From Sphingopyxis sp. (lineage in GTDB: Bacteria; Pseudomonadota; Alphaproteobacteria; Sphingomonadales; Sphingomonadaceae), in assembly GCA_030148985.1 (NCBI GenBank), contig JASBSJ010000059.1, forward strand, positions 1 to 64,000: DNA of 64,000 bases, written 5' to 3'. The translations under genes were made by a program, and so were the position numbers. Positions 15,524 to 18,447 of the stretch are shown in pieces. The notes under the pieces are model-generated. The model did no database searches and was not told where the DNA came from. It saw only the letters and a program-made list of their open reading frames with translations. Every line of letters starts with the position of its first letter. Position 1 is the stretch's first letter.

Positions 15524-15955
15524 TCAATTTGCTGCTGCGACCGGCGGCGCGTCGCCGAACGACCACATGCGCTCGAGGTTATAGAAGCTGCGCACCTCGG
15601 GGCGGAACAGGTGGACGATGACATCGCCCGCATCGAGCAGCACCCAATCGGCATTGGGCAGCCCTTCGACGCGGACCGGACGGCCCGCTTCCTGCTTGAT
15701 CCGCTGCGCCAGCTTCTCGGCGATCGCCGAGACGTGGCGCGTCGAACGGCCGCTCGCGATCACCATATGGTCGGCGATGCTGCTTTTGCCGGCAAGCGGA
15801 ATCGAGATGGTTTCCTGGGCCTGGTCCTCGTCCAGCTGGTGGAGGATCAGCGCGTGGAGCGCGTCCACGCTGTCATTGGCAGGAGCGGCGCCCGGCGCGG
15901 CCCCCTGGGTGGCGGAGATCAAATGCGTCCTTTCTTGGTCGGTTCCACCAGCCAT
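15524..15955 (-). CDS. rsfS: Ribosome silencing factor
   Basis: DEDQAQETISIPLAGKSSIADHMVIASGRSTRHVSAIAEKLAQRIKQEAGRPVRVEGLPNADWVLLDAGDVIVHLFRPEVRSFYNLERMW; start codon uncertain. Confidence 0.95.
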   Translation of the reverse strand: MAGGTDQERTHLISATQGAAPGAAPANDSVDALHALILHQLDEDQAQETISIPLAGKSSIADHMVIASGRSTRHVSAIAEKLAQRIKQEAGRPVRVEGLPNADWVLLDAGDVIVHLFRPEVRSFYNLERMWSFGDAPPVAAAN

Positions 15956-16572
15956 GAACGCGTGATCGGGTCGCGCAGCGCGCGGCCTTCATAGCGTTCG
16001 AACCAGCGGGGGTTGGCCTGCCGTATCGCAGTCGCGGATCGCACATCGGGCGAAAATCGCAAGAACACGAGGGCGGGCGGTCTCCAGTCTGTCCAATGCT
16101 TATTCTGGTCTGCGGGCCGGACAAATCGCCGCAGCCATCCCATCGCACGTCTTGCATGGGCGTGATCATTATAGCCCGGACGCGCGATAACCGCAATCGG
16201 CATCAATCGCGCAATCCCCCGCCAGTCGCGCCATTGGGGCAGTTGGACCAGATTGTCGGCGCCGATGATCCAGATAAACTGGCGGTCGGGATAGCGGCGG
16301 ACGAGCTTTTTAAGCGTGTCGATCGTGTAGCGCGTGCCAAGCTCGGCCTCGATTCCCGTCGCGCGAATGGGTGCGCGCCGCGCCATGCGCCGCGCCGAGG
16401 CGAGCCGTGCGGGGAGGGGCGCCATGCCTGCCCTGGGCTTGAGCGGATTGCCGGGCGAGACGAGCCACCAGAGCTCATCCAGCCCGAGCGCGTCGATCGC
16501 ATTGAGGCTGATCGCGCGATGCCCGCCGTGCGCAGGGTTGAAGCTGCCGCCGAGGAGGCCGGTGGGGATCAT
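15919..16572 (-). CDS. nadD: Nicotinate-nucleotide adenylyltransferase
   Basis: MIPTGLLGGSFNPAHGGHRAISLNAIDALGLDELWWLVSPGNPLK...; start at 16572 overlaps toxin stop (ATGA). Confidence 0.95.
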   Translation of the reverse strand: MIPTGLLGGSFNPAHGGHRAISLNAIDALGLDELWWLVSPGNPLKPRAGMAPLPARLASARRMARRAPIRATGIEAELGTRYTIDTLKKLVRRYPDRQFIWIIGADNLVQLPQWRDWRGIARLMPIAVIARPGYNDHAHARRAMGWLRRFVRPADQNKHWTDWRPPALVFLRFSPDVRSATAIRQANPRWFERYEGRALRDPITRSWLVEPTKKGRI

Positions 16573-16859
16573 GGCAGGCTCTGCCAGTCGCTGCGGTTGT
16601 GCTGAACCCGCGCGATGAGAATCCCGTCCGGCTCGATTTGATAGATGAGAAGCAGCGGTGTCGCGGGCACCCGCCACTTGCGCAATGCACCGTCCGTGAA
16701 CGTCGGACCGGCGCGCGGGCGATCGAGCAGAAATTCGGCAGCCTCCAGCGCGGCATCGACGGCACGAACGGCAAATTCAGGATCGAGCGTCGCGTAAAAA
16801 TCTTCGATATGCGCGAGATCCGAGCGTGCGGGCCCGGACCATCGGAGCCGAGCCATCAA
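16569..16859 (-). CDS. parE: RelE/ParE superfamily toxin
   Basis: MARLRWSGPARSDLAHIEDFYATLDPEFAVRAVDAALEAAEFLLDRPRAGPTFTDGALRKWRVPATPLLLIYQIEPDGILIARVQHNRSDWQSLP. Confidence 0.9.
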   Translation of the reverse strand: MMARLRWSGPARSDLAHIEDFYATLDPEFAVRAVDAALEAAEFLLDRPRAGPTFTDGALRKWRVPATPLLLIYQIEPDGILIARVQHNRSDWQSLP

Positions 16860-17125
16860 ACGGCGACGTCCCTTTTCGCGTCCCGTTGCGCCCGTCGATC
16901 AGCGATCCACTGTTTCATGTCGTCGTGCGAAATCCAGTCGCCCGCTTCCGCGGCATCAAGGCCTTCTTGAACAAATGCCAGAAACTCCGCCTCGCGCCGA
17001 GCATGTTCACGCACCGCCTGAGAGACGAACCATGCGCGGCTGCGACCTTGTGCTGCGACGATCTCATCGACAAGGGCGACGGTGTCGTCATCGACACGGG
17101 CGGAAATGACGGTCTGCTTGGTCAT
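16856..17125 (-). CDS. parD: Ribbon-helix-helix (CopG/ParD-like) antitoxin
   Basis: MTKQTVISARVDDDTVALVDEIVAAQGRSRAWFVSQAVREHARREAEFLAFVQEGLDAAEAGDWISHDDMKQW; ATGA overlap with toxin. Confidence 0.88.
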   Translation of the reverse strand: MTKQTVISARVDDDTVALVDEIVAAQGRSRAWFVSQAVREHARREAEFLAFVQEGLDAAEAGDWISHDDMKQWIADRRAQRDAKRDVAV

Positions 17126-17137
17126 GTTTTCATTTAT

Positions 17138-17157
17138 ATCATTTGTATACAAATGAT
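17138..17157. promoter_or_regulatory. Perfect 20-bp palindrome, putative toxin-antitoxin autoregulatory operator
   Basis: ATCATTTGTATACAAATGAT, 12 bp upstream of antitoxin start and abutting the proA stop. Confidence 0.8.
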
Positions 17158-18447
17158 TCAAGAACGTGTCTGACCGCTCCCGCGCACAAGCCATTTGTAC
17201 GTCGTCAGCCCTTCGAGCGCCACCGGGCCGCGCGCGTGGAGGCGCCCCGTCGCGATGCCGATTTCGGCGCCGAGGCCGAATTCTCCTCCATCCGCAAATT
17301 GCGTCGAGGCATTGTGTATGACGATGGCGCTGTCGACGCCCGTCAGGAAACGCTCGGCGGTCGCGGCATCCTCGGTGACGATGGCATCGGTGTGGCGGCT
17401 CGAATGCGCATCGATGTGCGCGAGCGCCCCGTCGAGGCCATCGACTATGGCGATCGACACGATTGCGTCGAGATATTCGGTGTCCCAATCGCCGGTGCTC
17501 GCGGGTTCGACATGCGGGCTGAGTGCTGCGACGCCCTTGTCACCGCGCACCTCGCAGCCCGCGGCAATCAGCGCATCGATAATGGCGAGCGGCGCGCCGT
17601 AGACACGGTCGATCAGGATCGTCTCGGTCGCGCCGCAGATGCCGGTACGACGCATCTTGGCGTTGACGGCTAGCTCGACCGCCTTCGCCGGGTCAGCGGC
17701 GCCGTCGATATAGAGATGATTGATCCCGTCGAGATGCGCGAGCACCGGCACGCGCGCCTCGTCCTGCACGCGCGCGACCAGCCCCTTGCCGCCGCGCGGG
17801 ATTATGATGTCGATCAGGCCCTGCGCGCGCAGCATCGCGCCGACCGCGGCGCGGTCCTGCGTCGGGACCAGCTGCACGGCATCGGCGGGGAGGCCCGCAT
17901 CGACGAGGCCCGCCGCGAACGCCGCGTGGATCGCACGGTTCGACTGCGCCGCCTCGCTGCCGCCGCGCAGGATGACGGCATTGCCCGACATCAGCCCGAG
18001 CGCCGCGGCGTCGGCGGTGACATTGGGACGGCTTTCATAGATGATACCGACGACGCCGAGCGGAACGCGCACGCGGCTGAGTTCCAACCCGTTGGGCCGC
18101 GTCGCGCGATCGATCTCGCTGCCGACGGGATCGGCCAGCGCCGCGACCGCTTCGATCGCATCGGCGATTCCCGCAAGGCGAAGCTCGTCGAGCCGCAGCC
18201 GGTCGAGCATCGCGCCCGACAGGCCGTTCGTCCGCCCCGCGGCCATATCCTCGGCATTGGCCGCCAATATCGCCGCCGACTGCGTGCGGATCGCGGCTGC
18301 CGCGGCCCTCAGCGCCGCAGCCTTTTCGGCGGTCGGCGTCTGCGCGAGCCGTTTCGCGGCGGCGCGCGCGCGCGCGCCCATATCGGCGATCAGCGCGGCG
18401 GCATCGCCGGGCAGCGGGGAAGGAGCGGTGAGCGTTTCTGTGGTCAT
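17158..18447 (-). CDS. proA: Gamma-glutamyl phosphate reductase
   Basis: [47 protein letters not shown]...[18 protein letters not shown]. Confidence 0.97.

Follow-up and report, generated by a model that had tools for sequence, protein, structure and literature searches.

The window analyzed here is a stretch of 64,000 nucleotides from Sphingopyxis sp. (assembly GCA_030148985.1, contig JASBSJ010000059.1). On its minus strand, the genes proA, an antitoxin gene, a toxin gene and nadD follow one another consecutively. The features of this junction are given below; we call the joint between proA and nadD the slot, and any genes within it cargo.

17158..18447, minus strand: proA, encoding glutamate-5-semialdehyde dehydrogenase (NCBIfam NF001221/TIGR00407, above cut-off)
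17160-17158, minus strand: proA stop codon
17156..17161, minus strand: TTGAAT, a candidate -35 element that shares positions with the proA stop codon (read from sequence)
17138..17157, directly after the proA stop: perfect 20-bp palindrome ATCATTTGTATACAAATGAT, which lies in the spacer of the candidate promoter and may be the ParD operator
17133..17138, minus strand: TATAAA, a candidate -10 element; 17 nt separate it from the -35 element upstream and 7 nt from the antitoxin ATG downstream
16856..17125, minus strand: ParD-like antitoxin of 89 aa, with an RHH_1 domain at residues 7-43
16569..16856, minus strand: ParE toxin of 95 aa, whose 5' end lies in a TGATG with the antitoxin stop and whose 3' end lies in an ATGA with the nadD start
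16569..16572, minus strand: ATGA stop-start overlap of toxin and nadD (read from sequence), a geometry common to 54 of 59 slot toxins
15919..16572, minus strand: nadD, encoding nicotinate-nucleotide adenylyltransferase, the gene downstream of the slot (NF000843, 301 bits, cut-off 240)

The original prediction, made from the sequence alone, placed an RHH antitoxin and a RelE/ParE toxin between proA and nadD on the minus strand, and Pfam and NCBIfam matches bear this out. The antitoxin matches Pfam RHH_1 (PF01402) with 35.5 bits (cut-off 20.5, E 8.8e-9), and the toxin matches ParE_toxin (PF05016) over its full length with 48.6 bits (cut-off 23, E 1.2e-12). The predicted insertion of this toxin-antitoxin (TA) cassette into the operon without a spacer holds as a description of the structure, as does the ATGA overlap of toxin and nadD at 16569-16572. 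The joint between antitoxin and toxin had been misread as another ATGA, at 16856-16859. It reads GTT-TGA-TGG, with the antitoxin's TGA at 16858-16856 and the toxin's ATG at 16856-16854, i.e., a TGATG in which one nucleotide is shared. We regard this ATG as the conserved start because the nearest homologue (L119) has CTGATGG at its antitoxin/toxin joint. The module is therefore bicistronic in the order typical of ParDE systems, with the antitoxin first and the toxin overlapping it via TGATG.

The AlphaFold model of the window's toxin has a pLDDT of 90.5. In a Foldseek search with this model, ParE of P. aeruginosa (6xrw) ranked first (E 2.3e-7, TM 0.79-0.80), ranks 1-23 were occupied by ParE or related TA toxins (PfiT, PrpT), and RelE/YoeB structures appeared from rank 24; solved ParE toxins outrank RelE, YoeB and YafQ as structural matches. 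A profile of the slot toxins, compared with the Protein Data Bank, matched mostly ParE-named chains. Judged from these profile matches and the predicted fold, the module is a ParDE-type pair of an RHH antitoxin and a ParE-fold toxin. RelE/StbE toxins belong to the same superfamily, but fold and profile matches favour ParE for the slot toxins. We rejected a RelE/StbE mRNA interferase, as the window's toxin has no NCBIfam match and RelE-type structures rank below ParE; one slot toxin matches the RelE/StbE model TIGR02385 weakly, below its cut-off. Two more ParE_toxin matches occur in the same genome (G000:C84:2868-3101 and G000:C40:62333-62584; L001 and L002), and the slot profile does not match them.

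With type II ParDE systems (P. aeruginosa 6xrw, M. opportunistum 5ceg/6x0a and the ParD-ParE complex 3kxe) the module shares an RHH antitoxin followed by a ParE-fold toxin, overlapping genes and a palindrome near the promoter. By analogy with characterised ParE toxins, its toxin would act on gyrase. Unlike the known ParDE systems, it is placed inside a core operon, with a biosynthetic gene on either side, and overlaps the one that is expected to be essential; its lineage is specific to the slot and has many alleles.

We surveyed 233 distinct nadD loci from Sphingopyxis and about 95 other Sphingomonadaceae genera, a comparison that the original prediction had suggested, and found the module present or absent depending on the locus. 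Of the 79 Sphingopyxis loci, 44 carry TA modules or remnants, 16 carry other small genes and 19 are empty. The TA loci comprise 41 intact modules (four of them behind a second cargo gene), two remnants (L120 and L046) and one mosaic; an additional exception is L031, whose antitoxin is shortened. When toxin families are drawn at 55% identity, the slot's TA toxins form 8 families, and toxins that are only ~36% identical to each other can stand next to nadD proteins that are 91-94% identical. Direct proA-nadD joints are found in the 19 empty Sphingopyxis loci and in 65 loci of other genera. As in other intercistronic insertions of TA modules, the operon is intact without the TA in relatives, and the locus takes other elements (N126, N220, a SnoaL-like gene, and double cargo). 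Among control joints, nadD-rsfS and rlmH-peptidase have no insertions in 47-48 loci, and rsfS-rlmH has an insertion in 3 loci. The proA-nadD joint is therefore a variable slot, whose contents differ between species and range from various TA pairs to other small genes to none at all. Since it is so often empty or filled with unrelated cargo, the operon does not need the module, which by its distribution appears to be dispensable.

The 16 non-TA loci consist of nine with N220, six with N126 and the one with a SnoaL-like gene. N126 (L091, L109, L123, L172, L173, L181) is a conserved protein of ~110 aa after its overlap with proA (LWRPVGP...FPPRLPEQPIFYPVT...HEEYWIPAEDLP), with a pN/pS of 0.14. 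It has no match in Pfam, NCBIfam or PADLOC, and its structure model is poor (pLDDT 43). N220 (L068, L080, L097, L098, L106, L111, L122, L169, L177) evolves fast, is ~200-225 aa long and seems to have a hydrophobic segment at its N-terminus (ATPF.WL.ARD); the one member scanned matched no family. PADLOC's models of anti-phage defence match neither the antitoxin, the toxin, N126 nor N220.

One explanation for this diversity is ancient vertical inheritance, in which a single ancestral TA of the family gave rise to fast-diverging descendants that are today's alleles, empty sites are losses, and there was little exchange. The distribution of the slot toxins is in keeping with this idea. On the toxin tree, slot and non-slot toxins are separated by 3 changes, versus 22.6 when shuffled; the non-slot set consists of the best matches to a profile built from slot toxins, so that the comparison is with the nearest non-slot relatives in the sample, and the alignment is short, with many forks of the tree unresolved. 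The slot toxins may thus be a lineage of their own that arose about three times at most, although a single origin is not proven. The slot is confined to Sphingomonadaceae within our sample. In an even draw from the family, a slot toxin was present in 23 of 199 genomes with nadD and in 16 of 96 genera, and the 21 best profile matches are all at the slot. Outside the family, no adjacency of toxin and nadD was found in 84 genomes from other families of the order or in ~120 genomes with nadD from the class. Vertical inheritance is also compatible with synonymous divergence (pS), which is ~0.6 for cargo in the larger families, versus ~0.39 for proA and ~0.33 for nadD in the same genomes, so that, judged against the flanking genes, the alleles look old. 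Old alleles of this kind look like the product of long-term maintenance of diversity; alternatively, the cargo has a higher synonymous rate.

However, the allele families are scattered on the tree of the flanking genes. On a 79-tip tree of proA and nadD, the cargo label changes at least 45 times, where shuffled labels average 54. This slight clustering implies that part of the pattern is vertical, but the toxin families T02 and T03 as well as N220 and N126 are fully scattered. Near-sister loci with 93-94% flank identity can have unlike cargo, e.g., T03 in L117 and N126 in L123. Moreover, over the final 30 nt of proA, identity within a cargo class is in excess by 0.063, where permutations reach 0.023 at most. 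The association does not extend beyond the final 30-60 nt of proA: none is seen farther upstream or in nadD from codon 6 onwards. The end of proA thus appears to behave as a left recombination flank.

Several loci have features that resemble scars of exchange. L118, which has double cargo, contains a duplicated 28-nt proA tail ahead of the TA operator, and shorter duplicated proA tails are present in L121 and L058. The mosaic L114 has a left end from one cargo class and a right end from a toxin. The toxins of L093 and L096 are 97.2% identical next to flanks that are 88.9% identical. Toxin pairs of the same family are mostly less alike than their flanks (median 0.734 vs 0.857, leaving out pairs with L055, which are misaligned in this ungapped flank comparison), so that either the majority of transfers happened long ago or cargo evolution is faster. 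In L103, L104, L129 and L132, the antitoxin is itself a mosaic, with a T02-like RHH N-terminus and the toxin-binding C-terminus of T01, next to a T01 toxin; a common operator may make antitoxin DNA-binding domains exchangeable. The scattered families, the association with the proA tail, the scars, the L114 mosaic, the L093/L096 pair and the mosaic antitoxins together point to cassettes being exchanged through homologous recombination at the conserved proA and nadD ends. Given the scatter, the proA-tail association with its scars, and a toxin pair (L093/L096) that is more alike than its flanks, we consider ancient vertical inheritance with little exchange unlikely; an old origin with later exchange fits better than pure descent.

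The relationship between cargo and nadD is remarkably constant. A toxin ends directly upstream of nadD in 59 loci, and the fact that all of these are on the operon strand rules out chance adjacency. The overlap is exactly 4 nt for 54 of the 59 toxins and for 14 of the 16 non-TA cargo genes (68 of 75 cargo genes overall), compared to 12 of 84 direct proA-nadD joints. The overlap with nadD is therefore not specific to TA modules, as unrelated cargo has it likewise. An SD-like 4-mer is present upstream of nadD in 1 of 54 TA loci, versus 13% of random 15-mers. Because of the 4-nt stop-start overlap and the lack of an SD, translation of nadD probably depends on termination-reinitiation at the end of the gene before it, whatever that gene is, which makes the originally proposed translational coupling of nadD to the toxin plausible. 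The gene nadD is expected to be essential. At empty Sphingopyxis sites (L100, L095, L099, L107 and others), there is no ATG, GTG or TTG near the usual nadD start, and the frame is open into proA. Translation at these sites may therefore begin within proA, at an ATG lying ~40 nt inside that gene, or at a CTG that overlaps the proA stop.

The original prediction did not mention the 20-bp palindrome at 17138-17157, of which the 2.94-Mb assembly contains no second copy with up to 2 mismatches. Within Sphingopyxis, TGTATACA is present in 38 of 44 TA loci and in none of the 35 non-TA loci. The operator-region consensus of 39 loci is CCTTGAATCATTTGTA^TACAA-TGATACA; it includes CCTTGAATCA, the candidate -35 region, and TACA or TATA is kept at the candidate -10 position across loci. 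The centre of the consensus is almost always 10 nt past the proA stop and 20-22 nt ahead of the antitoxin ATG, and an SD-like 4-mer is found at the antitoxin start in 1 of 55 loci. TTGAAT-17-TATAAA would be a candidate promoter whose spacer contains the palindrome and whose mRNA is predicted to have no leader or almost none. We picked out this promoter by eye; a consensus scanner does not report it, because the scanner demands a T at the last -10 position. The operator-like palindrome is kept together with the TA and absent where the TA is absent, and it may serve autoregulation of the module. By analogy with characterised type II systems, ParD(E) would bind the palindrome and repress the TA promoter, in which case carriers would transcribe nadD both by read-through from proA and from the TA promoter.

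These observations might suggest that the TA module was domesticated as a regulator of nadD, with the overlap selected in order to tie NAD synthesis to TA status, as had been raised in the original prediction. There is no gap between toxin and nadD, nadD has no SD, the operator lies directly upstream, and selection conserves both TA genes: median dN/dS is 0.09-0.15 for the toxin and 0.055-0.10 for the antitoxin, i.e., both are under purifying selection. On the other hand, 19 of 79 Sphingopyxis slots are empty and 16 contain unrelated genes, non-TA cargo shows the same overlap, the alleles are often replaced rather than fixed, and the toxins keep their ParE fold under purifying selection. Domestication is thus improbable. 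In view of the dN/dS values, the retained fold and the conserved columns, we also rejected a degenerate toxin, one of the outcomes that would have spoken against the original prediction, although L120, L046 and L031 are exceptions of the kind described above. In carriers, the TA and NAD synthesis might be linked in their regulation, because a candidate autoregulated TA promoter lies upstream of nadD and no gap follows the toxin.

An integration hotspot of a site-specific mobile element would account for the precise borders and the several unrelated cargo types, but it is very unlikely, because the cargo ORFs read include no integrase or transposase, the right border is simply the nadD start, the left border is diffuse over 30-60 nt, and the window's toxin has no match in plasmid or phage records (tblastn). 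A mobile carrier was rejected because this tblastn search of plasmids and phages found nothing; the operator 21-mer has one match in IMG/VR (L332:5847-5867), on a viral contig, which falls within an unrelated coding gene, has no TA nearby and is probably a coincidence.

We therefore consider it probable that the proA-nadD joint is a long-lived cargo slot, and that the window contains one allele of a slot-specific ParDE lineage that is exchanged by homologous recombination. Alleles would pass between strains at the conserved ends of proA and nadD, with no integrase, as we infer from the cargo that was read. If nadD, lacking an SD there, is reinitiated from the preceding gene, only sense-strand cargo that ends on the nadD start would be tolerated. 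The module itself would persist as an addiction element, or because it aids defence against stress or phages, and not on account of NAD metabolism. A further idea, which we offer tentatively and regard as doubtful, is that the slot polices itself: nadD would be translated only via the preceding stop, so that sense-strand cassettes ending on its start survive, and the resident ParDE would penalise its own replacement. If this is true, many old TA alleles would be kept circulating across species, as a trans-species polymorphism, with no dedicated recombinase.

Intercistronic TA insertions are known from enterobacteria, e.g., relA-mazEF-mazG (with parDE at this position in Salmonella), dinB-yafNO-yafP and folA-ccd-apaH (PMC7167474). 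In both cases, the operon or junction that holds the TA is complete even where the TA is missing, and one junction can take other elements. Unlike the enterobacterial insertions, the slot combines, in a single genus, 8 or more toxin families with three further types of cargo and with empty sites, and it has a constant 4-nt downstream overlap, proA-tail scars and a measured recombination footprint. A 2020 review called the movement and integration of chromosomal TA systems unelucidated (PMC7167474), and we found no report of a TA at proA-nadD in the literature searched. The slot is a rare sequence record of the exchange of TA modules inside a core operon. Because many filled, empty, mosaic and scarred states can be aligned at the same two genes, the route of transfer can be read and tested directly. 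In addition, it is a natural setting in which to test whether an expected-essential gene is coupled to exchangeable cargo through a stop-start overlap, and whether selection against replacement keeps TA alleles diverse.

Two smaller observations concern other genes in this operon. In other Sphingomonadaceae, Altericroceibacterium and Erythrobacter among them (L152, L160, L162, L171, L206 etc.), the proA-nadD joint contains a gene of ~350 aa that we named by eye as aldo/keto reductase-like. The insertion at rsfS-rlmH in L104, L111 and L113 is a gene of ~247 aa (WWLTGE...VGQVANGGFEQFISNY), which is absent from the other loci; rsfS-rlmH is thus a further site of insertion in this operon, occupied less often than proA-nadD.
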